DNA from: an uncultured Lachnospiraceae bacterium | Lineage (GTDB): Bacteria > Bacillota > Clostridia > Lachnospirales > Lachnospiraceae | DNA length: 64,000 nt | Reading direction: 5' to 3' | NCBI GenBank assembly: GCA_934432885.1 | Contig: CAKRYY010000005.1 | Coordinates: 19,849-83,848, forward strand | In this document: piece by piece, positions 45,896-63,805 of the stretch | How the letters are laid out: each line of letters starts with the position of its first letter | How positions within the stretch are numbered: position 1 is the stretch's first letter | Made by a program: the position numbers and the translations under genes | The notes under the pieces: generated by a model | What the model was told of the DNA's origin: nothing | Database searches by the model: none | Seen by the model: only the letters and a program-made list of their open reading frames with translations

Positions 45896-46669
45896 TTATA
45901 ATGGAGCTGGGGTACATTCATAAATATTTACGTTTTTCCGTTCCAAAAAGCTCTTCCATTCTGAAGAAAAATGATAGTCAGATATAATTCCATAAATAGG
46001 CTCATAGTCGCAGATGTGGACAAAAGAGGTCTTGTCAAATTTTGATTTATCAGCGATTAAATAAATGGAATTGCTTGAATGTAAAAGGGTCTGGCGAATC
46101 AGGGCGATGTCCTCGTTGGAATCTGTAATGCCATGCTGCATGGAAAGAGAGCGGCAGGACATAAAGGTTTTGTCCAGAAAATATTCCTTTAATCCCTGTA
46201 CAGCGGCGCGTCCGTTGAAAGCCCGGGATTTTGCGGTATAAGTACCTCCGATGCCTACTAAATGAATCGTATCACAGTCCTTGAGCTGATCAATAACCAT
46301 CAGCGAATTGGTAACTACAGTAAGTCTCATACCTTTTATTTTTTTTGCAACAAAGGTTGCTGTTGTGGAGGCATCCAGAAAAATCGTATCTCCATGATGA
46401 ATCAGTTCGGAGCATTTTTCTGCGATTGCCTCTTTGCTTTCAATGCAGGCGGTTTCCCGGAGCGTAAGGTCAATATCGTTAATTACGCCATCCTGAATAA
46501 AAGCGCCTCCGTATGTCCTTGAAAGAAATCCCTCATTCTCAAGCTGCTGCAGATCCTTACGGATGGTTTCCTCTGTGACGGAAAATCTTTTTGAGAGTTC
46601 TGTTACAGTAACACTTTTTTTCTCGAGCATAATATCTTTGATTTGCGCTTTTCTTGTAACGGCTAACAT
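45896..46669 (-). CDS. DeoR-family regulator, likely controlling the BMC and transporter operons
   Basis: A 257-residue DeoR-type repressor. The N-terminal helix-turn-helix reads VTVTELSKRFSVTEETIRKDLQQLENEG, followed by LSRTYGGAF. The C-terminal sugar-phosphate sensor domain contains HHGDTIFLDASTTATFVAKKI and IADKSKFDKTSFVHI. It is divergent from the aldolase gene of the BMC operon, separated by a region holding four copies of AAACAAAGA; a fifth copy lies upstream of the transporter operon. By family precedent the effector would be a sugar phosphate of the pathway, for example a 5-substituted ribose- or ribulose-1-phosphate. AAAGGGG precedes the start. Confidence 0.88.
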   Translation of the reverse strand: MLAVTRKAQIKDIMLEKKSVTVTELSKRFSVTEETIRKDLQQLENEGFLSRTYGGAFIQDGVINDIDLTLRETACIESKEAIAEKCSELIHHGDTIFLDASTTATFVAKKIKGMRLTVVTNSLMVIDQLKDCDTIHLVGIGGTYTAKSRAFNGRAAVQGLKEYFLDKTFMSCRSLSMQHGITDSNEDIALIRQTLLHSSNSIYLIADKSKFDKTSFVHICDYEPIYGIISDYHFSSEWKSFLERKNVNIYECTPAPL

Positions 46670-46785
46670 GCCATTGTCCCCTTTCGCTTGTAAATAGTTT
46701 AGGTTAGATTACAGGATTAAAAATCCTGCTTTTAGTATACCTGTTTTTAAAATCATAGTAAAGAAAATTATAAAGAAAAACATAA

Positions 46786-46919
46786 AAACAAAGATTATAA
46801 AAGAAAAAACAAACAAAATAAAGGATATAGTATTGACAAAACAAAGACAAATGATATAATTTTTACTATAAAAACAAAGAAAATAAAAGATAAAAGAAGA
46901 AAAATGAGGAAAACAAAGA
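46786..46919 (+). promoter_or_regulatory. BMC operon promoter with repeated DeoR-like operators
   Basis: TTGACA (46833-46838), 16 bases, TATAAT (46855-46860) form a strong promoter. The 9-mer AAACAAAGA occurs at 46786, 46839, 46872 and 46911, that is before, inside and after the promoter, as expected for a DeoR-type repressor binding several direct repeats. Confidence 0.7.
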
Positions 46920-46937
46920 AACAAAAGGGGTGAAGAG

Positions 46938-47861
46938 ATGGTAACAATAAAAGGCGTAAAGTATATGTCTGATTTTGAAGCCAAAAATGCGATTATTGAC
47001 ATCGGAAAACGCATGTATCTCAGAGGCTTTGTGGCGGCTAACGACGGCAATATTACCTGTAAGGTCGGCCCTAATGCTATCTGGGCGACGCCGACTGGGG
47101 TATCAAAGGGATTTATGAAGCCGGAAATGCTGGTCAAACTGGATTTGAGCGGAAAGGTGCTTCAGGGCAGTGCAAAACCTTCCTCTGAAATTAAGATGCA
47201 CCTGCGGGTATATGAGGAAAATCCGGATGTTATGGCAGTGACACATGCACATCCGCCTATCGCAACAGCTTTTGCCGTAGCGGGTATAGGACTGGAAAAG
47301 CCAATCCTGACAGAAGGAGTTACTACACTTGGAGTTGTACCGGTTGCAAAATATGCAACGCCGGGTACACAGGAAGTGCCGGATTCCATTGCACCGTTTG
47401 TCAATGATTATAATGCGGTTTTGCTTTCAAATCATGGAGCGCTTACCTGGGGTAAGGATGCTTATGAGGCGTTTTACAGACTGGAATCAGTAGAGTATTA
47501 TGCAAACCTGTTGATGTATACAGGAAATATTATTGGCAAACAAAATGCGCTCTCCTGTGATCAGGTACAGACGCTTCTTGATAACCGGAAAAATTTTGGA
47601 ATTACAACAGGGGGCACGCCGCCATGTGCATGTGAGGCGACCAATACCCACGATGTTATTACCAATGTGATAAACGGAGCAAAAGGAGCCTGCGATACAA
47701 CAGGGCTTAAGGGTGTGACCCCGATTGTAAGACCTGGAGAGAATCCAATCGGCTGTGGCTGTGGAAGTATTCCGACAGAAGGCTTTGATAGCAAAGCAAA
47801 AAGTAAGGAAGAAATTATAGCTGAAGTTGTTCGCAGGGTAACCCAGAGCATGGAAAAATAG
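46938..47861 (+). CDS. Class II aldolase with BMC-targeting C-terminal extension
   Basis: Zinc aldolase of the FucA/RhaD/AraD superfamily, predicted to split a 5-substituted ribulose-1-phosphate into DHAP and a small aldehyde (acetaldehyde from 5-deoxyribose, methylthioacetaldehyde from methylthioribose). Metal ligands are visible as Glu84, His103 and His105 (THAHPP) and His166 (SNHGAL). The family is about 215 residues, while this protein has 307. The extra tail holds two Cys pairs (C230/C232 and C273/C275), a flexible linker and a final amphipathic helix (SKEEIIAEVVRRVTQSMEK) that looks like an encapsulation peptide. First gene of the BMC operon, with AGGGGTGAAG before ATG. Confidence 0.88.
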   Translation: MVTIKGVKYMSDFEAKNAIIDIGKRMYLRGFVAANDGNITCKVGPNAIWATPTGVSKGFMKPEMLVKLDLSGKVLQGSAKPSSEIKMHLRVYEENPDVMAVTHAHPPIATAFAVAGIGLEKPILTEGVTTLGVVPVAKYATPGTQEVPDSIAPFVNDYNAVLLSNHGALTWGKDAYEAFYRLESVEYYANLLMYTGNIIGKQNALSCDQVQTLLDNRKNFGITTGGTPPCACEATNTHDVITNVINGAKGACDTTGLKGVTPIVRPGENPIGCGCGSIPTEGFDSKAKSKEEIIAEVVRRVTQSMEK

Positions 47862-47873
47862 GAGGCGAGAGAG

Positions 47874-49307: not shown

Positions 49308-49322
49308 TAAGGAGATGGGATA

Positions 49323-49646
49323 ATGGGGAAACGGGCAGTTGGTTTTCTGGAATGTGCTGGCTATGCGACAGTTCTATATGCAATGGATAAGGCGTGTAAG
49401 GCGGCGGATGTTGAGATTATTGGCATAGATACCATCAATCCCAAAGATACCAGTGCATTTATCCCAATGACGGCGCAGGTAAAATTTGCGGGTACAGTTT
49501 CAAATGTAAAAATTGCTGCAGAGGTTGCAGGACAGGCGGCACTTCGATTCAACAGTGAAAAAGAGGTTCTCACAGATGTAATTGAACTGCCCTATGACGG
49601 AACAGAGTATTTGGCACATATAACAAAGATTAAATTTAACAGATAA
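49323..49646 (+). CDS. BMC shell hexamer protein, divergent BMC-H
   Basis: A 107-residue single BMC-domain protein expected to form hexameric shell tiles. The start [36 protein letters not shown] and the [12 protein letters not shown] helix are BMC signatures. It is less like PduA than its neighbours: it has a longer C-terminal strand ([22 protein letters not shown]) and an altered pore-loop segment, so it may form tiles with a special pore. GGAGATGGGATAATG context at the start. Confidence 0.88.
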
Positions 49647-49665
49647 GATTAAGGAGGAAATGGGT

Positions 49666-49947
49666 ATGTCGAACATGACAGCAATCGGAATGGTAGAAAC
49701 AAGAGGTCTTACAGCATCTATTGAGGCGGCAGATGCTATGTTAAAAGCAGCAGATGTAGAACTGGTAGGAACAGAAAAGATTGGTTCCGGTCTGGTAACA
49801 GTTATCGTAAAGGGAGAAGTAGGCGCAGTGAAGGCAGCTACAGAATCTGGACAGGAAGCAGCTTCCAGAATTGGTGAGCTTGTAGCTGTACATGTAATTC
49901 CGAGACCGCATCAGGATGTTACAAGAATTCTTCCGGTATTAAAATAA
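49666..49947 (+). CDS. BMC shell hexamer protein, PduA/EutM-type (copy 1)
   Basis: A 93-residue canonical BMC-H protein: [41 protein letters not shown], and the C-terminal [10 protein letters not shown]. The pore loop is KIGSG, as in PduA-type tiles that pass small polar metabolites. ATG 49666 is preferred over 49660 because AGGAGG ends at 49657, leaving 8 bases. It is a close paralogue of the protein at 50280; a third BMC-H gene lies between them. Confidence 0.93.
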
Positions 49948-49957
49948 GAGTTAGGTT

Positions 49958-50266
49958 GTGATTGGTTTGAAATGGAATGCGATTGGCGTGGTAGAAGTTA
50001 CAAATTATTCAAATACGGTTGTGGTAATGGATTCCATGTTAAAGGCGGCAGATGTCGAGATTGTCAGCTTCCATAAAAAACTTGGCGGAAAGATGGTTCG
50101 TGGAGTTGTGGCGGGTGAGGTTTCCGCGGTGGAAGCGTCTATAGATGCCGCTGAAACGAGCAGAACGCTGATAGGAGGAGATAACCTCAAGGTTGCCGTT
50201 TGTATCAGCAATCCGCATCCGGAAGTGGTAAAGCTGTTGAATATGTTAAATGAACGTGAGTCATGA
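49958..50266 (+). CDS. BMC shell hexamer protein, divergent BMC-H
   Basis: A 102-residue BMC-domain protein with [33 protein letters not shown] and [13 protein letters not shown]. The pore-loop region reads KKLGGKMV, so the pore is more basic than in the PduA-like copies. The start is GTG 49958 with only a weak ribosome site; TTG 49967 is an alternative. Its last codons are close to the ribosome site of the next shell gene. Confidence 0.88.
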
Positions 50267-50279
50267 GAGGAGAAAAAAG

Positions 50280-50576
50280 ATGGCGGAAGGAATAAAGAGA
50301 GGAATGCTTGCACTTGGCATGGTAGAAACAAGAGGTCTTACAGCATCCATTGAGGCGGCAGATGCTATGTTAAAGGCGGCAGATGTAGAGCTTGTAGGAA
50401 CAGAGAAAATCGGCTCTGGTTTAGTGACTGTTATGGTACAGGGAGATGTTGCAGCGGTAAAGGCGGCTGTTGAATCTGGACAGGAAGCGGCTTCCAGAAT
50501 TGGTGAGCTTGTAGCGACACATGTAATCCCAAGACCGCATCAGAGCGTGGGCACTATTCTTCCCTATGCAAAATAA
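50280..50576 (+). CDS. BMC shell hexamer protein, PduA/EutM-type (copy 2)
   Basis: A 98-residue canonical BMC-H protein almost identical in its core to the one at 49666 ([20 protein letters not shown] and the KIGSG pore loop are the same). The differing parts are the N-terminus ([13 protein letters not shown]) and the last ten residues. ATG 50280 follows GAGAGGAG; a longer frame from 50250 overlaps the previous gene and is not supported. A recent duplication or gene conversion is likely. Confidence 0.93.
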
Positions 50577-50597
50577 AAGAGCTAAAGAGGTTGAAGT

Positions 50598-51242
50598 ATG
50601 GCTGGATATGAAGCGCTTGTAGAAAAGGTTACAAGACTTGTTATTGAGCAGTTAAGACTGCTTAGTGAGCATCCGTATCAGATACCGGTTGGAATTTCTG
50701 CCAGACACATCCATTTGGAGAGAGCGCATGTAGAGGCGCTGTTTGGGACGGGATATCGATTGACCCCTATGAAACCAATCAGCCAGCCTGGACAGTATGC
50801 TTCGGAAGAAACAGTGGAGGTAATCGGTCCCAAAGGAAAACCTGTAAAGCTTCGGGTGCTCGGTCCTGAGAGAAAACATACCCAGGTAGAAGTATCCCTG
50901 TCGGATAGCAGAAACCTCGGGATTATTCCGCCGGTCAGAGCATCGGGGGATATTGCCGGAACGCCGGGAATTAAAATCAGGGGGCCTCAGGGTGAGATTG
51001 AGATAAAAGAAGGCGTCATAATACCGGATCGGCATGTCCACATGACACCGGAGGAAGCAAGATGGTATGGCGTTGAAAATGGTGAACGCGTCAGGGTAGC
51101 TGTGCCGGGAAATAAGGGCGGTATTATGAATAATGTGATTGTCCGCGTATCAGAAAGCTGCAGCCTGGATTTTCATATTGATACGGATGATGCAAATGCT
51201 TTCCAACTAACGCAGGGACAGATGGTGGAAATTATAAAGTAA
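50598..51242 (+). CDS. pduL: Phosphate acyltransferase PduL
   Basis: Converts acyl-CoA and phosphate to acyl-phosphate, regenerating CoA inside the compartment. The 214-residue product has both zinc-binding barrels: SARHIHLERAHVEALFG (His37, His39) and IIPDRHVHMTPEEA (His146, His148), plus the LRVLGPERKHTQVEVSLSD strand. The first 22 residues (YEALVEKVTRLVIEQLRLL) form an amphipathic helix typical of the encapsulation peptide of PduL. It sits between the hexamer and pentamer shell genes, usual for core metabolosomes. Confidence 0.95.
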   Translation: MAGYEALVEKVTRLVIEQLRLLSEHPYQIPVGISARHIHLERAHVEALFGTGYRLTPMKPISQPGQYASEETVEVIGPKGKPVKLRVLGPERKHTQVEVSLSDSRNLGIIPPVRASGDIAGTPGIKIRGPQGEIEIKEGVIIPDRHVHMTPEEARWYGVENGERVRVAVPGNKGGIMNNVIVRVSESCSLDFHIDTDDANAFQLTQGQMVEIIK

Positions 51243-51261
51243 ATGGAAAGAGAGAGCGCAC

Positions 51262-51522
51262 ATGATTATTGGAACGGTAAAAGGGACAATCGTATCGACA
51301 AGAAAATTTCAAAATCTAGTAGGCTATAAATTGTTGATGATAGAGCCCTATTTTGGTAATCGCGAACAGATTCTGGTGGCAGCCGATTCACTGGGGGCAG
51401 GGATTGGAGAGCTGGTACTGGTAACGACAGATAATACGACTCAATATGCGCTGGAACGTTCTGCACCTGTAGATGCGTTTGTTGTCGGTATCGTGGATGC
51501 GCCGCCTGTAATGGGAAAATAA
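51262..51522 (+). CDS. BMC shell vertex protein, EutN/CcmL family (BMC-P)
   Basis: An 86-residue pentamer-forming protein that caps shell vertices. It begins MIIGTVKGTIVSTRKFQNLVGYKLLM and contains the conserved VAADSLGAGIGELVLVTTD segment of EutN/CcmL. It is the only vertex protein seen in the locus. Confidence 0.94.
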   Translation: MIIGTVKGTIVSTRKFQNLVGYKLLMIEPYFGNREQILVAADSLGAGIGELVLVTTDNTTQYALERSAPVDAFVVGIVDAPPVMGK

Positions 51523-51596
51523 TAGGAATTAACTGAGGCTATTGCTTTGATGCGATGGCCTCAGAGCATATCATTTTGATTTTTGGGAGAACAATT

Positions 51597-52712
51597 ATGA
51601 GCGAGAAGGTATTGCGTGTGCTTGCAGTGGCAGATCCTGCGGTAACTGCTTATACAGATAAAAGATTTGGAATATTGGAAAATTATCCAGAGAAGGTCCA
51701 GTTTGATGCTGTACCCTGGGAGAGATATTACAGCACTATGATGGATGTATTTGCTGGAAAAGCGCAGTACGATATTGTGATGGTTGCAGGACATTTGTGG
51801 CTGTGCGACTTTGTAAGAAAGGGGTATCTTGCAGAACTTTCGTATGATTTTGAGGATATTCTGCCGGTTATTGCGGCTGAAATGCAGTATGAAGGAAAGA
51901 CATATTTATCGCCTTCCTTTTGTGATGGACATATTGTGACATATAGAAAAAGTGCCTTAAAGAAAGTGCTTGGAAGAACTTTTGACAATATGATTACGCC
52001 GCAGGAATTTGCGGAGGCGGCATATTTACTGGCAAAGGAAACGGGAAAGCCTGCTGTTGCGCTTAAGGCAAGCGTGGCGGAGATTTTTACAGATGCGCTT
52101 CCTTTTCTACGCATGAATGGCGTTGATCCGTATTGTGGGACAAAAGCAGACTGTAACAGAAAGGAAGTAATTGAAGGGCTGGAAGCATACTGTGGTCTGA
52201 AAAAGATTGCGCTTGCGGGATGTGATACTTTTGGAAATGATGAGGTGGCAGCTGCCATACGTGAGAACAAAGTGCCGCTTGCAACGACATGGAGCGGGCA
52301 GATGGGTGTCGTTTATACGGACGACTGCGTGCAGAAGGAGGATATTGGATTTGCGGCGTTTACTACCGGATGGAATGTGAGTTGGTCCTTTGCTGTCAGC
52401 CAGAACAGTACGCAGAAGAAGGAAGCGGAAAAATTTTTGGCATTTCTTCGCAGCCCGCAGGTTGACAAAATTGCAGGGAACGTAAGCGGCTCGCCGGTAC
52501 GGCTTTGCAATTATAAGGCAGAGGATGATGAACATCCCTGGTATGCCTGCCAGTTAAAGATGTTTGAAAAGGCGGCACCGCTGCCGGATATGCCGTTTGC
52601 TGGCGATAAAAATGGAATTTTCTATCAGGAAATTTCAAATGCATTTACAGGTAAAAAGACGCCTGCACAGGCAATGAAGGATGCACAGGAAGCTATAAAC
52701 CGGATTGGATAG
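51597..52712 (+). CDS. Solute-binding-protein-fold protein without signal peptide, in the BMC operon
   Basis: A 371-residue protein of the bacterial extracellular solute-binding family 1 type, judged by the layout VLRVLAVADPAVTAYT, AQYDIVMVAGHLWLCDFVRKGYL, the central EVIEGLEAYCGLKK and the C-terminal EKFLAFLRSPQVD and ISNAFTGKKTPAQAMKDAQEAI. ATG 51597 follows TGGGAGAAC. Neither this start nor the upstream extension (51555) has a signal peptide or lipobox, so it should stay in the cytoplasm, which is unusual for the family. It lies between the vertex gene and the flavoprotein gene. Function is unknown; an intracellular ligand-binding or cargo role is possible. Confidence 0.75.
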   Translation: MSEKVLRVLAVADPAVTAYTDKRFGILENYPEKVQFDAVPWERYYSTMMDVFAGKAQYDIVMVAGHLWLCDFVRKGYLAELSYDFEDILPVIAAEMQYEGKTYLSPSFCDGHIVTYRKSALKKVLGRTFDNMITPQEFAEAAYLLAKETGKPAVALKASVAEIFTDALPFLRMNGVDPYCGTKADCNRKEVIEGLEAYCGLKKIALAGCDTFGNDEVAAAIRENKVPLATTWSGQMGVVYTDDCVQKEDIGFAAFTTGWNVSWSFAVSQNSTQKKEAEKFLAFLRSPQVDKIAGNVSGSPVRLCNYKAEDDEHPWYACQLKMFEKAAPLPDMPFAGDKNGIFYQEISNAFTGKKTPAQAMKDAQEAINRIG

Positions 52713-52724: not shown

Positions 52725-54056
52725 ATGAGAGTTGTTATAATCGGAGGAATTGCTGCTGGCATGTCTGCGGCCTCCAAGATTGCAAGGATGGATAAAACAG
52801 CAGAAATTATTGTATATGAAAGAAAGGGCTTTCTTTCGTATGGCGCTTGCGGACTGCCTTATTATGTAGGCGGGTTTAATGATGATTACCGCAGAATGAT
52901 TGCAAGAACAGAAGAACAGTTTGAAGCCATGGGGATAAAAACGTTTCTGCACCATGAGGTAACATCGGTAGACTTTGAAGGAAAGCTGGTGTCTGGAAGA
53001 AATTTAAAGAGCGGAGAAAATTTCCAGTGCCCGTATGACAAACTGATGATTGCAACAGGCGCAGCGTCTATCGTTCCTCCTTTTGAGGGAAGAGAACTGA
53101 TGGGAGTGCATGTGCTCAAGACAATGGAGGATGGCATTTTTATCAGAGAGCTTGCAAAACAGCCTGAAATCAAAAATGTGACAATCGTAGGCGGCGGCTA
53201 TATTGGAATTGAATGTGTAGAGGCATTTCTGCATTTGGGGAAAAAGGTCCGTTTAATTGAAGCTGCAGACAGAATCCTGACGCCTTTTGACGAAGAGTTA
53301 TCAGAGCTGGCACAGGAAGAGCTGCTGGCGCATGGCGTAGAGTTGTGCCTGAATGAGAAGGTTGTAAAATTTTCAGGGACAGATTATGTACAGGAAGTAG
53401 AAACGGACAAAGGACGGTATCAGGCAGAACTGGTCATTATTGCTGTTGGAGTGAAGCCTTCTACCGAATTCCTAAACGGCACCAATATAAAGCTTGCAAA
53501 AAATGGTGCAATCATGGTGAACCGCAGACTGGAAACGTCCATCCCTGATGTGTATGCAGCGGGGGATTGCTGCCTTGTCTATCATAGAGAAACTGGAAAA
53601 GATGCTTTCCTTGCGCTTGGTACAGTAGCAAATAAATGCGGCAGGCTGGCGGGAGCTAATATATGTGGCGCAGGGCAGGAGTTTACAGGAGCGCTTGGTT
53701 CTGCAGCGATTAAGGTCTTGAACCTTGAGATGGGAAGGACCGGACTTGGAGAAAAGCAGGCGGCGCAGTTTGGCTACTCGTATAGGACAATTATAATCCG
53801 GGCATACGATCATCCGGCGTACTATCCAAATCCGACGCCGATTACCATAAAGCTGATTTATGAACGCGGCAGCAGGCGGATTTTGGGCGCGCAGGCGTGT
53901 GGAAATAAGGGAGCTGTTATGAGGATAGATATTTTTGCAGTGGCAATCCATAATGGGATGACGACGCAGGAACTTGGAATGACAGACCTTGTTTATGCCC
54001 CTCCCTTTGCCGGCGTATGGGATGCAGTTCAGATAGCATGCAATGCAGCCAAGTAA
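52725..54056 (+). CDS. CoA-disulfide-reductase/NADH-oxidase-like flavoprotein
   Basis: A 443-residue FAD- and NAD(P)H-dependent pyridine nucleotide disulfide oxidoreductase. The FAD loop is VVIIGGIAAGMSAASKIAR, the single redox Cys is C42 in LSYGACGLPYYVGG, the second dinucleotide loop is VTIVGGGYIGIECVE, and PDVYAAGDC binds FAD. One Cys in this position is typical of CoA-disulfide reductase and water-forming NADH oxidase. In a BMC operon it could keep CoA reduced or reoxidise NADH. There is no rhodanese domain. It lies 12 bases after the solute-binding-like gene. Confidence 0.9.
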   Translation: MRVVIIGGIAAGMSAASKIARMDKTAEIIVYERKGFLSYGACGLPYYVGGFNDDYRRMIARTEEQFEAMGIKTFLHHEVTSVDFEGKLVSGRNLKSGENFQCPYDKLMIATGAASIVPPFEGRELMGVHVLKTMEDGIFIRELAKQPEIKNVTIVGGGYIGIECVEAFLHLGKKVRLIEAADRILTPFDEELSELAQEELLAHGVELCLNEKVVKFSGTDYVQEVETDKGRYQAELVIIAVGVKPSTEFLNGTNIKLAKNGAIMVNRRLETSIPDVYAAGDCCLVYHRETGKDAFLALGTVANKCGRLAGANICGAGQEFTGALGSAAIKVLNLEMGRTGLGEKQAAQFGYSYRTIIIRAYDHPAYYPNPTPITIKLIYERGSRRILGAQACGNKGAVMRIDIFAVAIHNGMTTQELGMTDLVYAPPFAGVWDAVQIACNAAK

Positions 54057-55677: not shown

Positions 55678-56832
55678 ATGGGAGCAGAAAGAATCAATGC
55701 GGTAAAAACAAGCTTTTTTGGAAAGGGAGCGATTGGTCTCTTACCGGCGGAGCTTAAAAAAAGACGCTACAAAAGAGTCCTGATTGTAACAGATAAATTT
55801 TTATATGAAACGAACGTTGCAAAGCGGGTAGGCGATGAAGTGCTTAAGGCAGATATTGAGTACGCTATTTATTATCAGGTGACGCCAAATCCGACGACGG
55901 CGGTTGTAAATGAGTGTATTGAGGCGGCACGGACATTACAGGTGGATGCGCTTGTCGCTGTTGGAGGTGGCTCCGCGATTGATACCTGTAAAGCGGTAAG
56001 TATTGTGCTTGCTAATGGCGGTAAGGTAGAGGATTATGAGGGCGAAGAGAAGTCTGTAAAGCGTGGAATTCCGATTATTGCAATCAACACGACAGCAGGA
56101 ACTGGCTCAGAGGTAACCTGTTTTTATATTGTAACAGACAGTGTGCGCCACTCAAAGATGTGCATGGTAGATACAAACTGTATGGTGGATATTGCCATCA
56201 ATGATACTGATTTTATGATGTCCATGCCAAAAGGACTGACTGCATCTACAGGAATGGATGCAATGACGCATGCGATTGAAGCTGCGCTGACGTGGAAGTC
56301 AACGCCTTTGACGGATAAGGATGCGTATTGGGCGATTACAACAATCAAAGAATATCTGCCCAGAGCAGTGGCTGATGGTAATGACGTAAAGGCGAGGGAG
56401 ATGATGGCGTATGCGGAAAATGTCGCAGGAATGGCATTTTCTAATGCAGGCTTGGGAATGGTGCATGCAATGGCACATGCTTTAGGCGGATTTTATAATC
56501 TTCCGCATGGAGTGTGCAATGCCGTATTGCTTCCGTATGTATTGGAATATAATGGAAAATTTCAGGAATCGGCACAGCGGTTTGAAAAAATAGCGGATGC
56601 GCTTGGAATCCAGAGAATGGGAAATACGGACGCAGTGAAGGCGGTTGTGGAGGCGATCCGCAAATTATCCAGAGAAATTGGGATTCCGGGCAACCTTACG
56701 GAATTGAAAAAAGTCAGGGAAGCTGATTTTGAAGCCCTGGCAAAGCTGGCGGCGGCAGATACCTGCATGGGGGCAAATATTGTGAAGCCTTCTCTGCAGG
56801 ATATAATAGCGGTATATCACAGTGCATTATAG
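55678..56832 (+). CDS. Iron-containing alcohol dehydrogenase (PduQ/FucO-like)
   Basis: A 384-residue group III alcohol dehydrogenase that would reduce part of the aldehyde to alcohol and regenerate NAD+ for the acylating dehydrogenase. NAD binding is GGGSAIDTCKAV and NTTAGTGSEVT. The iron ligands are Asp194, His198 (GMDAMTHAIEA), His263 and His277 (GMVHAMAHALGGFYNLPHG). No clear encapsulation peptide is seen, so it may work inside or outside the shell. The gene follows the beta subunit by 29 bases with a GAGAGGTGAAGG ribosome site. Confidence 0.93.
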   Translation: MGAERINAVKTSFFGKGAIGLLPAELKKRRYKRVLIVTDKFLYETNVAKRVGDEVLKADIEYAIYYQVTPNPTTAVVNECIEAARTLQVDALVAVGGGSAIDTCKAVSIVLANGGKVEDYEGEEKSVKRGIPIIAINTTAGTGSEVTCFYIVTDSVRHSKMCMVDTNCMVDIAINDTDFMMSMPKGLTASTGMDAMTHAIEAALTWKSTPLTDKDAYWAITTIKEYLPRAVADGNDVKAREMMAYAENVAGMAFSNAGLGMVHAMAHALGGFYNLPHGVCNAVLLPYVLEYNGKFQESAQRFEKIADALGIQRMGNTDAVKAVVEAIRKLSREIGIPGNLTELKKVREADFEALAKLAAADTCMGANIVKPSLQDIIAVYHSAL

Positions 56833-57048: not shown

Positions 57049-57060
57049 TATTTTCATCCT

Positions 57061-57113
57061 GAGAACCTCTTTTGTTGGGTTTAAATTGCCCAATGAAAGA
57101 GGTTCTTTTTTTA
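57061..57113 (+). terminator. Terminator of the BMC operon
   Basis: GAACCTCTTT (57063-57072) pairs with AAAGAGGTTC (57097-57106), with an inner TTGGG/CCCAA stem, followed by TTTTTTT. A strong intrinsic terminator. Confidence 0.92.
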
Positions 57114-57518
57114 CCATATTTGTAAAAGTGCACAAAACGGAAAATGCAGCATACTAAATTCGTTTAGTACATAAACAAAAGACGATTTAGTTAATGTAAA
57201 CAATAGCATTATTCTTAAAAATTTAAAATATGTGCAAATATACAAACAAAATCAGAGATAAATAGAAAAGTTGCATAAAATTAGGAAAGCATATAAAAAT
57301 GACAGATTACTAAATGAATTACTAAACAAATAACTAAACGATTAGCAAATATAAAACTAAACAGAACTAAACAAAGACATTATTAACGAAAATCAGAACT
57401 AAACCAAACTAAATATTGATTTAGAGCCAAATTAAAGGTATGATTAAAACATGAAATCAATAACACAACAAATTGTGCGATTTCAACAAATAATTATTTT
57501 AACTAAGGAGGTTACGTT
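57114..57518 (+). promoter_or_regulatory. Control region of the transporter-mtnKA operon with ACTAAAC array
   Basis: ACTAAA occurs in direct orientation at 57309, 57321, 57333, 57356, 57366, 57398 and 57408, mostly followed by C. A 6-4-6 dyad (ACTAAA-TTCG-TTTAGT) lies at 57153-57168 and an inverted TTTAGT at 57186. The array ends just before TTGATT (57416-57421), a 17-base spacer and TATGAT (57439-57444). One copy of AAACAAAGA (57369-57377), the motif repeated at the BMC promoter, is embedded. No gene is seen in this 405-bp stretch. Confidence 0.7.
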
Positions 57519-58742
57519 ATGAAGAGAAAGTTATTGAGCGCATTATTATGCGTGGCAATGGTAGCTTCGATGCTTACCGGGTGCGGAAGCGCCAAGAGTG
57601 AGGAAGCAGCTGCCACTGCACCTGCGGCAGAAGCAGAAACCGCTGCACCTGCTGCGGAAGCAACAGGGGAAACTGCTGCAAGCTCCACTACGGAAAGTCC
57701 TGTAGCTGGCAAGAAGGTGGCATATATTATGATTATGCCGTCAGCTTCTATTTTCCAGATGTGGAAAGATTCCTGTGCAGAGTTATGTAATGCACTGGGC
57801 GTACAGTTTGATTTCTTCTTCTGCGACGGAGATTTTAACAAGTGGCAGGATACCATTCGTACATGCGCATCAGCAGGATATGATGGCTTGCTGGTAAGCC
57901 ATGGAAATCAGGATGGTTCTTATGTGTTCTTAAAAGAGATTACAGAGCAGTATCCGGATATGAAGATTGTTACATTTGATACACAGTTCTATGCAGATGG
58001 CGAGTATAAGAAACTGGATGGCGTTACACAGATGTTCCAGCAGGATGCTTCCCTGGTAACAGTTCTTCTGGATCAGCAGATTGCAGAGAAGAAGGCAAGA
58101 GGAGAGGAAGGACCTGCAAGACTGATTAAAGTCTGGAGAGGACCGAACTACAACAGTCCGTTTGACCGTCGTGAGGTAGGCTGGAAAGAATATGAAGATG
58201 CAGGAAAAATCGTAACAGTTGGCGAAATTCAGCCGTTGCAGGATTCCGCAGATTCCGCGAATACAGTAACAGCAGCATATCTTCAGAGCATTAAGCGTGA
58301 AGATGTAGACGGAATGGTTGTTTACTATGACCTGTATGCACAGGGCGCATATAACGCAATCCTTGAAAATGATAACTTCAATGGCAAAAACGGAGCAGCT
58401 CTTTCAATGGGTTCTGTAGATATTGACCCGGTTGATGTTACAAATATGCAGACAAATCCTGATATCTGGTCTGCAGCTGGTACAACAGACTGGACGATGA
58501 ACGGCGAAATCGGCATGCGTATCCTGATGCTTGAGATTGCAGGAGAATATGACAAGATATATGACCCTGCTTCCGGACAGAGCGGTGTTGATGTTGTAGA
58601 AGTTCCGGGTACAGCAATTCCGGCAACAAGCCTGAAGGCAGATTCTACAGTAGAGAATCTTGGAGATATTGCAGGCGAAACATACGGCAACCTTGATTAT
58701 CTGTCAGAGACAGACTGGATGCCTAAGAATCTGATTCACTAA
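57519..58742 (+). CDS. Sugar-binding lipoprotein of the Rbs-type ABC transporter
   Basis: Lipid-anchored receptor predicted to capture 5-deoxyribose, 5-methylthioribose or a related sugar. The 407-residue product has a signal peptide ending in the lipobox MLTGC (Cys about residue 22), an Ala/Glu-rich linker and a type I periplasmic-binding fold (VAYIMIMPSASIFQMWKDSC, YDGLLVSHGNQDGSY, KIVTFDTQF, VDGMVVYYDLYAQGAYNAI). AAGGAGG precedes ATG. The sugar assignment rests only on the following mtnK and mtnA genes and on the family; it is not the AI-2 receptor, which is encoded at 12635. Confidence 0.88.
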   Translation: MKRKLLSALLCVAMVASMLTGCGSAKSEEAAATAPAAEAETAAPAAEATGETAASSTTESPVAGKKVAYIMIMPSASIFQMWKDSCAELCNALGVQFDFFFCDGDFNKWQDTIRTCASAGYDGLLVSHGNQDGSYVFLKEITEQYPDMKIVTFDTQFYADGEYKKLDGVTQMFQQDASLVTVLLDQQIAEKKARGEEGPARLIKVWRGPNYNSPFDRREVGWKEYEDAGKIVTVGEIQPLQDSADSANTVTAAYLQSIKREDVDGMVVYYDLYAQGAYNAILENDNFNGKNGAALSMGSVDIDPVDVTNMQTNPDIWSAAGTTDWTMNGEIGMRILMLEIAGEYDKIYDPASGQSGVDVVEVPGTAIPATSLKADSTVENLGDIAGETYGNLDYLSETDWMPKNLIH

Positions 58743-58752
58743 GAAAAACAAA

Positions 58753-58813: not shown

Positions 58814-58859
58814 CATAATAAAAATTTTTATAATTACAGGCAGCTGAAAAGAGGACGAT

Positions 58860-60389
58860 ATGGAAAAGAAAGTATTAAAAACGAAAAATGTATCCATAAG
58901 TTTCCCGGGAGTTAAGGCGCTGGATAGCGTGGACTTTGAAGTATCAACTGGAGAAATCAGAGCCGTTGTAGGTGCTAACGGTGCCGGAAAATCAACCTTG
59001 ATGAAGGTTCTGGCAGGAGCAAACCCAGGCTACACAGGGGAAGTTTTGTTAGATGATCAGGTTGTTGAGCTGAGAACACCCATTGATGCAAAGAAATTGG
59101 GCGTTCAGATTGTTTATCAGGAGGTAGACACATCTTTAGTCCCTACACTGTCAGTGGCGGAAAACATCATGATCAATGAAATGGTCATGAGCGGCGGCGT
59201 GGGAATGAATTGGAAAAAAACACGTGAAGAGGCTAAAAAAGCGCTTTCGCGTTTGAATATTAAAGATATTGATGTAAATACGCTTGTTCAGAATCTGTCA
59301 CTTGCGCAGAAACAGATGGTTCTCATTGCGAGAGCAATCCGTATGGAATGTAATTTCCTGATTCTGGATGAGCCGACAGCGCCATTAAGTGCATCTGAGA
59401 CGAAGGAACTTTTTGAGGTAGTAAGACTTTTGCGCGATACAGAAAATCTGGCGGTTATCTTTATTTCCCACAGATTAAATGAAATTCTTGAAATATGTGA
59501 GAAATATACCGTTATGAGAAACGGTCAGCTGGTAGATAACACCCCCATTACAAAGGAAACAAGTACAAAGGAAATCGTAGAAAAAATGCTTGGAAGATCC
59601 TTTGAAGAAAGCTTTCCAAAGGAAACGTGTGAAATTGGAGAAGAGGTTTTCCGCGTAGAGAATCTAAGCGGTGCAGACGGCAAGGTGGATAATGTATCCT
59701 TCCATGTAAGAGCAGGCGAAATCGTAGGAATCGCGGGACTTGTAGGAGCTGGAAAATCAGAGCTTTGCAAAACCATTTTTGGAGCATATAAAAAGACTGG
59801 CGGAAAGGTCATCTTAAATGGAAAGGAATTGAAAATCAAGGTTCCTGCGGATGCAGTAAAAAATGGCATTGCGTTTGTGCCTGAGGAAAGGCGTAAGGAA
59901 GGCGTGCTTGTTGAGGAAAATGTAGCACTCAATCTTTCGGCAGCAGCGCTTGACCAGTTCTGCACAGCTTCCTTTGTAAATACCCAGAAGGTAAACGAAA
60001 ATGCAGAAAAATATGTGAAAAGTCTCGGCATAAAGACGCCGTCTATCAAGCAGCTTGTCAAGAACTTATCGGGCGGTAATCAACAGAAGGTTGCCGTAGG
60101 GAAGTGGCTGACTGCTGACGGTGAGCTGTATATGTTTGACGAACCTACCAAGGGTGTTGATGTCGGGGCAAAACAGGATATTTTCCACCTCATAAATAAC
60201 ATTGCCAAAAAGGGAAAAGGCGTTATTTACGCAACCTGTGAGGATTCAGAATTATTATCCTTAACGGACAGAATTTATGTTATGTACAGCGGAAAGATTA
60301 TGGCGGAGCTTGAAACTGCAAAGACGAGCGATGATGAAATTATGTATTATGCAGTCGGCGGCGATGCACAAGAACAGGATGAGACCTGA
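58860..60389 (+). CDS. Sugar ABC transporter ATP-binding protein (RbsA-like)
   Basis: A 509-residue double ATPase for the sugar importer. Half 1 has VVGANGAGKSTLMKVLAGA, LSLAQKQMV and FLILDEPTAPLS. Half 2 has GLVGAGKSELCKTIFGA, LSGGNQQKVAVGKWL and YMFDEPTKGVDVG. It differs from LsrA, whose second Walker A ends in R: here it keeps GAGKS. It is followed 28 bases later by the permease. Confidence 0.93.
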   Translation: MEKKVLKTKNVSISFPGVKALDSVDFEVSTGEIRAVVGANGAGKSTLMKVLAGANPGYTGEVLLDDQVVELRTPIDAKKLGVQIVYQEVDTSLVPTLSVAENIMINEMVMSGGVGMNWKKTREEAKKALSRLNIKDIDVNTLVQNLSLAQKQMVLIARAIRMECNFLILDEPTAPLSASETKELFEVVRLLRDTENLAVIFISHRLNEILEICEKYTVMRNGQLVDNTPITKETSTKEIVEKMLGRSFEESFPKETCEIGEEVFRVENLSGADGKVDNVSFHVRAGEIVGIAGLVGAGKSELCKTIFGAYKKTGGKVILNGKELKIKVPADAVKNGIAFVPEERRKEGVLVEENVALNLSAAALDQFCTASFVNTQKVNENAEKYVKSLGIKTPSIKQLVKNLSGGNQQKVAVGKWLTADGELYMFDEPTKGVDVGAKQDIFHLINNIAKKGKGVIYATCEDSELLSLTDRIYVMYSGKIMAELETAKTSDDEIMYYAVGGDAQEQDET

Positions 60390-60417
60390 ATAATTAGAAA
60401 ACGGAGGTAAAAAACAG

Positions 60418-61410
60418 GTGAAAACTTCGACGAAAAACAAAGATTTTAATATGAGCCGTTTCCTAGTTAGCTGGGCGGCTGTGTTCGCACTGATCCTTTG
60501 CTTCATTCTCTTTACAGCATTAAAGGGCAGCGCATTTATGTCATCAAGCAATATGGTAAATATTTTAAGGGCAATGTCCATCAACACGGTATTTGCCATT
60601 GCAGCAACGATAACAATGGCACCGGATGGATTTGATATGTCGGCGGCAACCCTGGCAAGCTGTTCTGCCTATGCTTTTGTATCGGCATTCCTCTGGTTCG
60701 GACTTCCGCTTCCGGTGGCAATTCTCGTGAGCATTATCACCACGATTATTATGTATCAGCTGACAATGTTTTTGATTCTTGTATGTAAAATTCCGGATAT
60801 GCTGGCAACATGTGCATTGATGTTTGTACATCAGGGACTTGGACAGTGGTACATAGGCGGTGGCGCCGTTTCAACAGGTATGCAGACATCCTGGCATACA
60901 GCACCTGCACGTACAGCTCTTACAGAAGGCTTTTCCGCGATTGGCCGTGCTCCCTGGATTATCATCATTATGTTTGCATGCGTTATTGTGGCACATATTT
61001 TCTTGAATTATACAAAGCAGGGCCGCTATCTGTATGCGATGGGCGGAAACAAACAGGCAGCTAAGCTTTCCGGTATCAATACAAGCAGATACCGCTACAT
61101 GGCAGGTATGATTACAGCCGTATTCATTGCGATAGCAGGTATTCTCGTAGCATCGAGAGGAAGCTCTGCACAGGTAATGTGCTGTGACGATTATCTGATG
61201 CCTTCTCTGGCAGCTGTTTTCGTAGGTCGTACAGTAGGCGGTGCAGAAAAGCCTAATGCAATTGGAACCATGATTGGTGCTTGCCTGGTATCTACATTGG
61301 AGAATGGTCTTACGATTCTGGCAGTTCCTTTTTATGTACTGCCTGCAGTAAAGGGCGCGGTTCTCGGACTTGCATTGATTGCAGCGTATGCAACAAAGAA
61401 ACAGGACTAA
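60418..61410 (+). CDS. Sugar ABC transporter permease (RbsC-like)
   Basis: A 330-residue membrane protein with about nine helices. RbsC-type motifs are FAIAATITMAPDGFDMSAATLAS, the cytoplasmic coupling segment MGGNKQAAKLSGINTSRYR and PSLAAVFVGRTVGGAEKPNAIGT. Only one permease is present, so it would form a homodimer, unlike the LsrC/LsrD pair. The start codon is GTG 60418 after ACGGAGGT. Confidence 0.92.
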   Translation: MKTSTKNKDFNMSRFLVSWAAVFALILCFILFTALKGSAFMSSSNMVNILRAMSINTVFAIAATITMAPDGFDMSAATLASCSAYAFVSAFLWFGLPLPVAILVSIITTIIMYQLTMFLILVCKIPDMLATCALMFVHQGLGQWYIGGGAVSTGMQTSWHTAPARTALTEGFSAIGRAPWIIIIMFACVIVAHIFLNYTKQGRYLYAMGGNKQAAKLSGINTSRYRYMAGMITAVFIAIAGILVASRGSSAQVMCCDDYLMPSLAAVFVGRTVGGAEKPNAIGTMIGACLVSTLENGLTILAVPFYVLPAVKGAVLGLALIAAYATKKQD

Positions 61411-61447
61411 TTTAAATTATCTTATAAAAGAAAAGAGGTAGAGCGAT

Positions 61448-62677
61448 ATGTCACGTTTTGACAAGTATTTTTTGATGAGTGTAGATGATATTGCGGAGTA
61501 TGTAGAGGAAAAACTTCATTTCTTTCCTGCAGGTGCAAAGCTTACCTGTAAAGAGATTGGTGATGGAAACTTAAATTATGTGTTCCGGTTAAAGGATGAG
61601 AACACAGGAAAATCCATCATTGTAAAGCAGGCAGGAGAAAGCCTCAGAATTGACGAGTCCATGAAACTTTCCACAGACAGAGGCAGAATTGAAGCCAAGA
61701 TACTTGGGATTCAGGGGAAGGCTGCACCCGGACTTGTACCGGAGGTTTATCTTTACGACGGCGTAATGTGCGCTATGTCAATGGAAGACATGATAGGACA
61801 TTCCATGATGCGTACAGCCCTGATTAACCATGAGATATTCCCACTGTTTGCAGAGCATATTTCCACATTCCTTGTAAATTCACTTTTGCTTTCTACGGAT
61901 ATTGTAATGAATCATAAGGAAAAGAAGGAAAATGTAAAAGCGTTTATCAATCCTGATCTGTGTGAGATTTCAGAGGATTTGGTATTCAGCGAGCCTTTCA
62001 TCGATTACAACCATCGTAATAATGTATTTCCGCCTAATGCCGAATTTGTGCAGAAGGAGCTTTATGATGACAAGAAGCTTCATCTGGAGGCTGCAAAACT
62101 GAAATTTGATTTTATGAACAATGCACAGGCGTTGATTCATGGAGATCTTCATACGGGCTCTATTTTTATCAATAAAGAGCATACATACGTATTCGATCCG
62201 GAATTTGCCTTCTATGGACCTATGGGATATGACATCGGCAATGTAATTGCAAATATGTTTTTTGCATGGGCAAACGGTGATGCCACGATTGAAGATGCCG
62301 CTCAGAAAGAGGAATTCTGTGGATGGATAATAGACTGCATCGAAGAGATTGTTGATAAGTTCATTGCAAAATTCAAGAAAGCTTATCAGGAACATGTAAC
62401 AGACATCATGGCGAAAACAGAAGGCTTTATGGACTATTATCTGGGAACCGTGTTGGCAGATACAGCCGGTATTGCCGGATTGGAATCCATCCGCCGTATT
62501 GTTGGAATGGCTAATAATAAAGATATTACGACCATTCAGGATGAGGAAAAACGGGCACGGGCTGAAAGAATTATTGTTACACTTGCCAAGAATTACATTA
62601 TGAACAGAACACAGTTTACCTCAGGCGCTGCTTATAGAAAAGCCATCGAAGAGGCTATTGCAACATTTAAAAACTAA
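61448..62677 (+). CDS. mtnK: 5-methylthioribose kinase MtnK (or 5-deoxyribose kinase)
   Basis: Phosphorylates the C1 hydroxyl of 5-methylthioribose, and in related systems 5-deoxyribose, trapping the imported sugar. The 409-residue product has the MtnK layout of the protein-kinase-like fold: EIGDGNLNYVFRL phosphate loop, IIVKQAGESLR lysine, the catalytic ALIHGDLHTGSIF (residues 229-240) and the metal-binding VFDPEFAFYGPMGYDIGN. It is followed by mtnA after 21 bases and preceded by the sugar transporter. The first two pathway enzymes are thus linked to uptake, while the aldolase is in the BMC operon. Confidence 0.93.
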   Translation: MSRFDKYFLMSVDDIAEYVEEKLHFFPAGAKLTCKEIGDGNLNYVFRLKDENTGKSIIVKQAGESLRIDESMKLSTDRGRIEAKILGIQGKAAPGLVPEVYLYDGVMCAMSMEDMIGHSMMRTALINHEIFPLFAEHISTFLVNSLLLSTDIVMNHKEKKENVKAFINPDLCEISEDLVFSEPFIDYNHRNNVFPPNAEFVQKELYDDKKLHLEAAKLKFDFMNNAQALIHGDLHTGSIFINKEHTYVFDPEFAFYGPMGYDIGNVIANMFFAWANGDATIEDAAQKEEFCGWIIDCIEEIVDKFIAKFKKAYQEHVTDIMAKTEGFMDYYLGTVLADTAGIAGLESIRRIVGMANNKDITTIQDEEKRARAERIIVTLAKNYIMNRTQFTSGAAYRKAIEEAIATFKN

Positions 62678-62698
62678 AATCAAAAAAGGAGAACTGTC

Positions 62699-63805
62699 AT
62701 GGAAGAAAAGAAATCTATAATGGATTATGAGACAGTTGCGCTGGATGATACAAAAGATGCGCTTGTAATCATTGACCAGACAAAACTGCCTTATAAAACA
62801 GAAATCCTTGAGCTGACAGATCAGGAGGATATCTGGAATGCAATTTATCTGCTTCAGGTAAGAGGGGCACCGGCGATAGGAGTAGCGGCTGCCATCGGCA
62901 TCTATCTTGCGGCGAAAGGGATTAAGGCAGATACATGGGATGAATTTTATCCTCAGTTTGTAAAAGCAAAGGAATATCTTGATTCAGCACGTCCTACAGC
63001 AGTAAATCTTTCATGGGCACTGAACAGAATGGATGCGGTTTGTCAGGCAAATAAAGATAAGACAATACCGGAAATCAAAAAGATTCTGCATGATGCTGCA
63101 GTTGAAATTAAGGATGAGGACATCTGGGTATGCAAGACGATCGGTGAGTATGGCTTATCACTTGTAAAGCCGGGCGATGGACTTTTGACGCATTGCAATG
63201 CAGGAAAGCTGGCGACGGTTAAATATGGAACTGCAACAGCACCGATGTATCTTGGATATGAGAGAGGCTATAATTTCCGCATTTTTGCAGATGAGACGAG
63301 ACCCCTTCTTCAGGGTGCACGCCTGACAGCATTTGAGCTGTATGAATCCGGACTGGATGTGACGTTAATTTGCGATAATATGTCTGCAACCGTTATGAAA
63401 AATAAATGGGTGGATGCTGTCTTTGTAGGCTGCGACCGTGTTGCAGCAAATGGAGATACTGCAAATAAAATCGGAACCTCAGTAGTTGCGACTGTAGCAA
63501 AACGGTACAATATTCCTGTATACATTTGTGCGCCTACTTCTACCATTGATATGAACACACCGACGGGAGCGGATATCAAGATTGAACAGCGGCCAGCAGA
63601 AGAAGTTACAGAAATGTGGTATAAAGAGCGCATGGCGCCAAAGGGTGTAAAAGTATTCAATCCTTGCTTTGATGTGACGGATCATGACCTGATTGCCGGA
63701 ATTATTACAGAGTATGGAATTGCAAGAGCACCGTTTACGGAATCCTTTAAGGAGATATTTGCCAAAAAAGAAGCAGCAAAGGGACAGAAGAAGATAGCAG
63801 AATAA
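62699..63805 (+). CDS. mtnA: Methylthioribose-1-phosphate isomerase MtnA
   Basis: Converts the aldose 1-phosphate to methylthioribulose-1-phosphate (or 5-deoxyribulose-1-phosphate), the substrate expected for the class II aldolase. The 368-residue product belongs to the eIF2B-like isomerase family. It has QVRGAPAIGVAAAIG, PTAVNLSWAL, the catalytic Cys166 in LLTHCNAGKLAT and Asp246 in VFVGCDRVAANGDTANKIGT. None of the later methionine-salvage genes (mtnB, mtnD and so on) is nearby, which favours the aldolase route. AAAAGGAG precedes ATG. Confidence 0.95.
   Translation: MEEKKSIMDYETVALDDTKDALVIIDQTKLPYKTEILELTDQEDIWNAIYLLQVRGAPAIGVAAAIGIYLAAKGIKADTWDEFYPQFVKAKEYLDSARPTAVNLSWALNRMDAVCQANKDKTIPEIKKILHDAAVEIKDEDIWVCKTIGEYGLSLVKPGDGLLTHCNAGKLATVKYGTATAPMYLGYERGYNFRIFADETRPLLQGARLTAFELYESGLDVTLICDNMSATVMKNKWVDAVFVGCDRVAANGDTANKIGTSVVATVAKRYNIPVYICAPTSTIDMNTPTGADIKIEQRPAEEVTEMWYKERMAPKGVKVFNPCFDVTDHDLIAGIITEYGIARAPFTESFKEIFAKKEAAKGQKKIAE

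Follow-up and report, generated by a model that had tools for sequence, protein, structure and literature searches.

We analysed a stretch of 64,000 nucleotides (the window) of an uncultured, gut-type Lachnospiraceae bacterium (contig CAKRYY010000005.1, assembly GCA_934432885.1), in which genes of a bacterial microcompartment (BMC) stand near those of the kinase MtnK and the isomerase MtnA, between positions 45896 and 63805. Judged from the sequences, this locus probably encodes a metabolosome that degrades a 5-deoxypentose through the dihydroxyacetone phosphate (DHAP) shunt. The substrate is most likely 5-deoxyribose, and 5-methylthioribose would probably be used too. The gene content, the conserved linkage, the targeting-like helices and the absence of fucose or rhamnose kinase, isomerase and glycyl-radical genes were seen directly.

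Gene content and proposed pathway

The window carries the gene set of a metabolosome (BMC-H and BMC-P shell proteins, an acylating aldehyde dehydrogenase and a phosphotransacylase), and the gene trio of the DHAP shunt (MtnK, MtnA and a class II aldolase) is encoded together there. A model reading the letters alone had proposed a BMC for this shunt (the original prediction). Every gene that it named was found in its place using open reading frames (ORFs) and hidden Markov models. Its gene list had omitted four genes between BMC-P and the alcohol dehydrogenase (SBP1, CoADR, CtA and CtB). The features are as follows.

45896..46669, minus strand: DeoR-family regulator (PF00455/PF08220), divergent from the BMC operon
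46833..46860, plus strand: promoter-like sequence TTGACA-16-TATAAT (12/12 consensus matches) in front of the BMC operon, surrounded by AAACAAA repeats
46938..47861, plus strand: class II aldolase, the signature enzyme, with a ~79-residue C-terminal linker plus amphipathic encapsulation-like helix
47874..49307, plus strand: coenzyme A (CoA)-acylating aldehyde dehydrogenase, EutE/PduP-type, with an N-terminal encapsulation-like helix (AldDH; PRK15398, 644 bits, cut-off 403)
49323..49646, plus strand: BMC-H shell protein 1 (PF00936)
49660..49947, plus strand: BMC-H shell protein 2 (PF00936)
49958..50266, plus strand: BMC-H shell protein 3 (PF00936)
50250..50576, plus strand: BMC-H shell protein 4 (PF00936)
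50598..51242, plus strand: PduL phosphotransacylase with an N-terminal encapsulation-like helix (PRK15070)
51262..51522, plus strand: BMC-P vertex protein, EutN/CcmL (PF03319)
51555..52712, plus strand: SBP_bac_1 solute-binding-fold protein without signal peptide (SBP1; PF01547; start read by eye)
52725..54056, plus strand: CoA-disulfide-reductase-type flavin adenine dinucleotide protein (CoADR; PRK09564; nearest solved chain 3cgb; conserved motifs)
54084..54923, plus strand: CoA-transferase-fold subunit A (CtA; PF01144; nearest solved chain 5mzw_A)
54911..55648, plus strand: CoA-transferase-fold subunit B (CtB; PF01144), conserved loop LNIPGG
55678..56832, plus strand: iron-containing alcohol dehydrogenase (Fe-ADH), lactaldehyde-reductase-like (TIGR02638, 409 bits, below the cut-off of 523)
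57061..57107, plus strand: terminator-like hairpin between the two operons (20-pair stem and T run)
57321..57404, plus strand: ACTAAAC repeat array before the importer-mtnKA operon (5 of the window's 7 copies; a sixth, on the other strand, at 57162)
57519..58742, plus strand: lipoprotein-like sugar-binding protein of an ATP-binding cassette (ABC) importer (PF13407)
58860..60389, plus strand: sugar ABC importer ATPase (PF00005, twice)
60418..61410, plus strand: sugar ABC importer permease (PF02653)
61448..62677, plus strand: MtnK-type 5-deoxy/5-methylthioribose kinase (TIGR01767, 423 bits against 275)
62699..63805, plus strand: MtnA-type 5-deoxy/5-methylthioribose-1-phosphate isomerase (TIGR00512, 405 bits against 279)

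In the proposed pathway, a 5-deoxypentose would enter through the ABC importer or arise in the cell through the action of methylthioadenosine (MTA)/5'-deoxyadenosine nucleosidase. MtnK would phosphorylate it at C1, and MtnA would isomerise the phosphorylated sugar to a ribulose-1-phosphate (5-deoxyribulose-1-phosphate and/or the methylthio analogue). The shell-targeted aldolase would split 5-deoxyribulose-1-phosphate into DHAP, which would go to glycolysis, and acetaldehyde inside the shell; a methylthio substrate would yield methylthioacetaldehyde beside DHAP. Part of the aldehyde would be oxidised by AldDH to acyl-CoA, which PduL would turn into acyl-phosphate (acetyl-phosphate) for ATP. Fe-ADH would reduce the remaining aldehyde to the alcohol (ethanol), and NADH and CoA would be recycled locally. 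Within this scheme we infer the substrate, the flux, the co-induction and the shell assembly.

The locus resembles the DHAP shunt (DrdK-DrdI-DrdA of Bacillus thuringiensis, MtnK-MtnA-Ald2 of Escherichia coli) in that the MtnK-type kinase, MtnA-type isomerase and class II aldolase stand together, with a sugar importer and a DeoR-family regulator nearby. According to the accessible part of the report on B. thuringiensis, DrdK, DrdI and DrdA convert 5-deoxyribose into DHAP and acetaldehyde, and 5-methylthioribose into DHAP and a thio-aldehyde (PMC6079011). The excerpted text of another study describes MtnR, the DHAP-shunt repressor of E. coli, as a DeoR-family protein (PMC12632272). However, the window aldolase lies in another clade than DrdA and has a shell-targeting-like tail, and the window genes are linked to a shell, AldDH, PduL and ADH. 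Homology and linkage suggest that the first two steps are those of DrdK and DrdI and are followed by aldol cleavage in a shell. In the available portion of a third study, a plain DHAP shunt let E. coli grow on 5-deoxyribose when it respired aerobically or was given trimethylamine N-oxide, but neither fermentation nor nitrate supported such growth (PMC10986504). Thus, a shell that couples oxidation and reduction of the aldehyde would benefit anaerobes.

Linkage of mtnK and mtnA to the microcompartment genes

The co-occurrence of mtnK and mtnA with the shell set was checked in 30 loci retrieved by a scan with the CoA-transferase alpha gene (CtA); loci and genomes carry our labels L and G. MtnA and/or MtnK adjoin BMC genes in 23 of the 30 loci (L028 was counted via the longer stretch L084). 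The remaining seven (L001, L002, L005, L022, L026, L029 and L030) start inside the operon or at most 0.4 kb from the aldolase, and any of them with sequence past the operon show no mtnKA there. Since these seven loci are cut by a contig end on the informative side, they cannot tell on linkage, and thus all 23 informative loci are linked. The hosts (among them Lacrimispora, Anaerocolumna, Acetanaerobacterium, a Candidatus Epulonipiscium metagenome-assembled genome, Clostridium, several Bacillaceae and Vagococcus) span Lachnospiraceae, other Clostridia, Bacillaceae and Vagococcus.

Three gene orders were found in relatives. In variant A, mtnK-mtnA and a reversed DeoR gene are followed by Ald-AldDH-BMC-H-PduL-BMC-P-(SBP1)-CoADR-CtA-CtB-(ADH), where Ald is the aldolase. 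Variant B (L016, L021, L023 and L024) has Ald-CoADR-CtA-CtB-mtnK-mtnA-PduL-AldDH in one run, with BMC-H after AldDH where the stretch reaches and, in L021, an importer between CtB and mtnK. Variant C (L073, L074 and L075) has mtnK-mtnA, a reversed DeoR gene and then RuBisCO-like protein-Ald-PduL-BMC-P-(AldDH)-BMC-H; AldDH was not found in L075, and an importer precedes mtnK in L074 and L075. In addition, the DeoR gene adjoins the aldolase in most window-type loci of relatives. The linkage thus survives rearrangement, including forms in a single run. The original prediction had named operons unlinked in relatives as a refutation; this fails, since the adjacency is kept through the changes of gene order. 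Its idea of a DHAP-shunt BMC is well supported by comparative genomics.

The closest relative found was another uncultured Lachnospiraceae genome, G001 (L001), with an aldolase 88% identical to that of the window and an MtnK 87% identical along the 205 residues matched at the end of a contig. In Clostridium bovifaecis (L028), the BMC-linked mtnK (G016:C1:811759-812958) has one internal stop in its match, and a second mtnK of that genome has none.

In the family to which Lacrimispora celerecrescens belongs (Lachnospiraceae), 329 genomes were surveyed with thresholds of 1e-30 for the aldolase match, 1e-8 for PF00936 and 1e-40 for MtnK. The aldolase match was found in 115 genomes, PF00936 in 100 and MtnK in 15. 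There were 17 MtnK places, and at eight of these (G179, G003, G004, G271, G273, G095, G169 and G293) an aldolase place lies no more than 5 kb away; six of the eight have BMC genes alongside, and G169 and G293 lack them. At three further MtnK places (G190, G314 and G338), a DrdA/FucA-like aldolase of ~30% identity stands a few kb away. Near-complete aldolase places of at least 55% identity numbered 16. Eight of these have MtnK within 5 kb, two have MtnA only (G283 and G205), two were not extended (G152 and G223), and the other four are weighed below; one more place (G039, the 17th) is cut to a fragment by the end of its contig. No family aldolase place below 55% identity has a listed MtnK place within 20 kb, the nearest being that of G099 at 23 kb, and no place of the sister clade (glycyl-radical/rhamnose-type) in this survey has MtnK within that distance.

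In a survey of 391 genomes of the class (aldolase match 1e-50, MtnK 1e-60), the aldolase match was found in 83 genomes and MtnK in 14. All nine aldolases of at least 59% identity adjoin MtnA, and four of these nine genomes (G364, G370, G414 and G487) gave no MtnK match. A PF00936 search of 18 genomes, including eight of the nine (all but G004), was positive in four; among the eight, only G487 was positive, ~1 Mb away. A BMC-P-like gene adjoins mtnA in G487, where it matches PF03319, and in G414, whose copy is 71% identical to that of G487.

The phylogenies of the two shunt enzymes were also examined. In a 36-row tree, the window MtnK falls into a 100/100 clade with the BMC-adjacent MtnK of L085, L082, L061 and L081, which also holds four copies not beside this BMC. 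The clade that holds the window MtnA in a 45-row tree (support 99/95) comprises 13 rows, of which 10 are BMC-adjacent. Furthermore, copies of the importer sugar-binding protein 72-77% identical to that of the window stand beside other mtnK loci.

Within the window, the promoter-like site of the BMC operon ranks best among the 38 promoter-like sites of a scan with a sigma-70-like consensus, and the importer-mtnKA operon has a separate promoter-like site at 57416 (9/12 consensus matches). The totals of the whole scan were not enriched over shuffles (38 promoter-like sites against 34.8 expected, 17 terminator-like ones against 13.6). Directly behind the ADH gene and ahead of the terminator-like hairpin lies a small ORF of 62 codons (56860-57048). 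Six of the seven ACTAAAC copies of the window lie between 57162 and 57404; AAACAAA has seven copies in the BMC promoter region and four before the importer, in A-rich sequence. A shared operator of both window operons was sought and none was shown, ACTAAAC being absent from the BMC promoter. Since the repeat arrays partly differ and the promoter-like sites are separate, co-regulation by one repressor is not demonstrated in the window. Both promoters of L081 (L. celerecrescens) carry an exact copy of a 15-mer, AAAACAACATAAAAC. We give it little weight because it was picked by eye from these sequences, was found in only some of the 25 sequences scanned and is absent from both window promoters. 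No riboswitch was found, an Rfam search of the whole window at gathering cut-offs giving zero matches.

The separate promoter-like site, the hairpin, the partly different repeats and a window gene order absent from other loci are what one would expect if the two operons were unrelated chance neighbours. However, the adjacency is conserved over genera and rearranged orders, MtnK is rare in the family (15/329), and the window MtnK and MtnA cluster with BMC-adjacent copies, so that chance is hardly credible as an explanation.

The aldolase and the substrate

The window aldolase scores below the cut-offs of all known equivalogs (best 122 bits against 250; L-fuculose-phosphate aldolase PRK06833, 113 against 264). 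Thus, it can be assigned only as a class II aldolase. In a tree of 56 aldolases, in which long branches make the deep joins unsure, it falls into a clade of 33 rows together with types A, B and X and all but one of the four D rows (support 89/79). The glycyl-radical-type BMC aldolases form a separate clade (97/100) neighbouring it, and both clades are split (98/93) from DrdA, FucA and the canonical drd-like clusters; DrdA groups with FucA and cluster O. The placement of type C aldolases and L077 was not resolved. Orthology to DrdA had been prompted by the best PDB sequence match (6btd, B. thuringiensis DrdA) and was rejected by the same 98/93 split. An alignment of 12 sequences shows no variation at residues S82-S83-E84, H103, H105 and H166; by analogy with FucA, we take these to include the catalytic Glu and the metal ligands.

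The neighbouring clade bears on the reading that the locus is a fucose/rhamnose-type (PVM-like or GRM5-like) BMC merely beside mtnKA, whose aldolase would produce lactaldehyde from L-fuculose- or L-rhamnulose-1-phosphate. Aldolases of that clade occur alongside glycyl radical enzymes (for example in L063 and L071) or RhaA/RhaB (L103), the window ADH is lactaldehyde-reductase-like, and published PVM-like class II aldolase loci were predicted to be fucose/rhamnose-like in the accessible part of PMC8156839. We searched 113 loci and the window by tblastn with FucI, FucK, RhaA and RhaB of E. coli and the glycyl-radical enzyme of L071. FucI had no match in them beyond the E. coli control. RhaA/RhaB matched strongly only in the control and in L103, where an aldolase of 54% identity stands with AldDH and BMC-H, and the glycyl-radical enzyme matched in L052, L055, L060, L063 and L071 and weakly in L077. 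No window-type, B or C locus among them matched FucI, RhaA or the glycyl-radical enzyme. Weak FGGY-kinase matches were seen in L069, L070 and L111 and in the window, where the weak FucK/RhaB matches fall on an LsrK gene. With the glycyl-radical-type aldolases in a clade of their own and mtnA/mtnK adjacent in 23 of 23 informative loci, this reading is very unlikely.

Another C5 sugar could be the substrate, for example ribose, with ribulose-1-phosphate cleaved to give glycolaldehyde. The aldolase does match the archaeal ribulose-1-phosphate aldolase model, at 94 bits against a cut-off of 300, and a ribokinase-like gene lies near L016, with homologues near L077 and L068. However, MtnK exceeds its equivalog cut-off, and DrdK is inactive on ribose in the available text of PMC6079011. 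We regard such a substrate as most improbable.

The encapsulation-like tails that the original prediction had noticed on the aldolase and AldDH stand up to comparison with 500 shuffles, of which only 3 scored as high as the C-terminus of the aldolase and 1 as high as the N-terminus of AldDH; for the N-terminus of PduL there were 3. A tail terminates all 30 distinct full-length BMC-adjacent aldolases listed, roughly 28 to 90 residues past the core, and among the eight whose amphipathicity was computed it is clear in the window (0.68). An AlphaFold model of low confidence (mean pLDDT, predicted local distance difference test, 64.7) places a helix at 290-306 after a disordered stretch (pLDDT ~64). 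In L012 and L028, PduL has only a weak N-terminal helix. Among 12 mtnA-linked aldolases without BMC-H alongside, six end right after the core (L076, L077, L079, L088, L100 and L102) and six retain the tail (L098, L099, L101, L104, L105 and L110).

Clusters of mtnK, mtnA and a tailed aldolase with no PF00936 match genome-wide were found in G476, G540, G580 and G699 (L101, L104, L110 and L105), and it is possible that they are relics of a lost shell. That of L101 stands by cobalamin-like genes (read by eye). In L072 (G048), a tailed aldolase 72% identical to that of the window (10611-11414) stands beside DeoR and phosphotransferase-system-like genes (the latter by eye), with no mtnA, mtnK or BMC genes alongside.

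The MtnK and MtnA families are named after methylthioribose, and this sugar could be the main substrate. The BMC would then salvage sulfur and carbon from methylthioacetaldehyde, with CoADR and CtAB (CtA and CtB) acting on methylthioacetyl-CoA. These two components are tied to the locus and otherwise unexplained; variant B has them between the aldolase gene and mtnK, and variant A retains them (loci retrieved with CtA). In addition, the RuBisCO-like protein of variant C (PF00016; nearest PDB chain 3qfw) has MtnW as its best NCBIfam match, far below cut-off (199 against 409 and 154 against 514 bits). Its gene lies between DeoR and the tailed aldolase (L073 3849-4973, L074 9876-11027, L075 10843-11979), which puts a RuBisCO-like protein into a BMC locus other than that of a carboxysome. 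On the other side, the fetched variant C stretches show no CoADR/CtAB, and AldDH, PduL and ADH are the standard core BMC chemistry for acetaldehyde or propionaldehyde. Furthermore, DrdK takes 5-deoxyribose and methylthioribose about equally in the accessible text of PMC6079011, and thus the kinase does not discriminate. Methylthioribose as the main substrate is unlikely, and we continue to favour 5-deoxyribose.

In 20 related genomes, one MtnK match was found in 17, and MTA/S-adenosylhomocysteine nucleosidase was above its cut-off in 16. MtnD (acireductone dioxygenase), a marker of oxygen-dependent methionine salvage, was above cut-off in only two (G010 and G014) and not in the other 18.

It is doubtful that CtAB is an ordinary CoA-transferase. 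Its nearest PDB entry is AibAB (5mzw). The CtB loop aligned with the AibB active-site segment, which we take to carry the catalytic residue there, is LNIPGG in all CtB rows, without Glu or Cys. With its conserved motifs EHACYT and LNIPGG, the pair may possibly catalyse a new type of reaction. CoADR retains the motifs SYGACG, YYP and YAPPF. The reductive C-S cleavage by 2-ketopropyl-coenzyme M oxidoreductase offers a model for a protein of the disulfide-oxidoreductase family. By such a route, methylthioacetyl-CoA made by AldDH would undergo reductive cleavage of its C-S bond by CoADR, with the help of CtAB, and would yield acetyl-CoA and methanethiol. That the shells of the window type and variant B also handle methylthioribose in this way, as an oxygen-independent salvage of sulfur and carbon in a microcompartment, is a speculative idea to which we give little credence. 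SBP1, whose gene lies inside the BMC operon and is present in many relatives, is probably cytosolic since it lacks a signal peptide.

DhaK-like genes were found after ADH in ten variant A loci. In L006 (12768-14486) and L003 (12860-14530), DhaK- and DhaL-like genes directly follow ADH (the DhaL of L003 by eye), and DhaK homologues lie near further variant A and B loci. In G001, a DhaK-like gene follows mtnA (L114, read by eye).

Several observations weigh against a 5-deoxypentose metabolosome. First, four of the 16 family aldolase places of at least 55% identity (G048, G269, G124 and G061) lack mtnA and mtnK in the fetched stretch. Second, the window seems to transcribe its two operons separately, their repeat arrays differ in part, and the window order, with importer-mtnK-mtnA downstream of ADH, is matched by no other mapped locus. 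Third, the window aldolase lies outside the Bacillus DrdA clade, the support for its own clade with A, B, X and most D is only moderate, and its neighbour clade contains glycyl-radical BMC aldolases. Fourth, the targeting signals are uneven: among the eight computed aldolases the amphipathicity of the tail is weak in L016 (0.37) and modest in L075, and the N-terminal AldDH helix is absent from five of 12 rows (L012, L014, L025, L027 and L028). Tailed aldolases also occur in six genomes without a PF00936 match (G476, G540, G580, G699, G414 and G048), which rejects the tail as a perfect sign of encapsulation and perhaps reflects shell loss. Finally, CoADR, CtAB and SBP1 have no firm step in the proposed pathway, and the DHA (dihydroxyacetone) kinase genes that relatives carry close to the end of the operon would be superfluous if the product is DHAP.

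Other genes of the window, known microcompartments and significance

At 6074-14807, the window carries a complete-looking autoinducer-2 (lsr) system with LsrK, LsrR, LsrA, LsrC, LsrD, LsrB and LsrF-type genes, of which LsrK and LsrF are above NCBIfam cut-offs and the rest below. Furthermore, 77 bases from the beginning of a pyruvate, phosphate dikinase gene are present twice with 100% identity (14940-15016 and 63924-64000); the second copy directly follows mtnA and runs off the window end. This repeat stems either from a duplication of recent date or from a join in the assembly. G001 carries a single gene of this kind, and its DhaK-like gene takes that place after mtnA.

Among known microcompartments, the fucose/rhamnose BMCs of the GRM5/PVM types share with the window DeoR, a tailed class II aldolase of a neighbouring clade, AldDH, PduL, BMC-H and BMC-P. 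However, window-type loci have mtnK/mtnA in place of the glycyl radical enzyme and fucose/rhamnose isomerase. The PVM-like locus type (Axen 2014; Sutter 2021) could include the window locus; in the accessible descriptions, by which alone we compared them, it is fucose/rhamnose-like with mtnK/mtnA unmentioned, whereas the window has ADH. In SPU microcompartments (2-deoxyribose-5-phosphate), as far as their available description goes, a sugar-phosphate aldolase likewise supplies acetaldehyde to AldDH in a shell, but with a DeoC-type aldolase and RpiB, whereas the window has a class II aldolase with MtnK/MtnA.

In their accessible parts, the BMC catalogues describe class II aldolase types (PMC4207490, PMC8217296, PMC8156839), and the word 'thioribose' is absent from the searchable text of two of the three. 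A methylthioribose kinase gene beside the pdu cluster of A. woodii was called unrelated to BMC function in the available text of PMC7593272. In the open full-text literature, we did not find a microcompartment together with 5-deoxyribose, mtnK or the DHAP shunt. This agrees with the statement of the original prediction that it knew of no described BMC with such a substrate, within a search that left subscription papers and supplements outside its reach. Thus, the locus has likely been named before as a BMC type; a prior assignment of a 5-deoxypentose substrate was not found in the open literature.

If the proposed function is true, a class II aldolase metabolosome for which we found no printed substrate would gain one. 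In addition, 5-deoxypentoses, the waste of radical S-adenosylmethionine and polyamine chemistry, would join the known substrates of BMCs. Furthermore, a shell with AldDH, PduL and ADH would give fermenting bacteria ATP from the aldehyde with redox balance.

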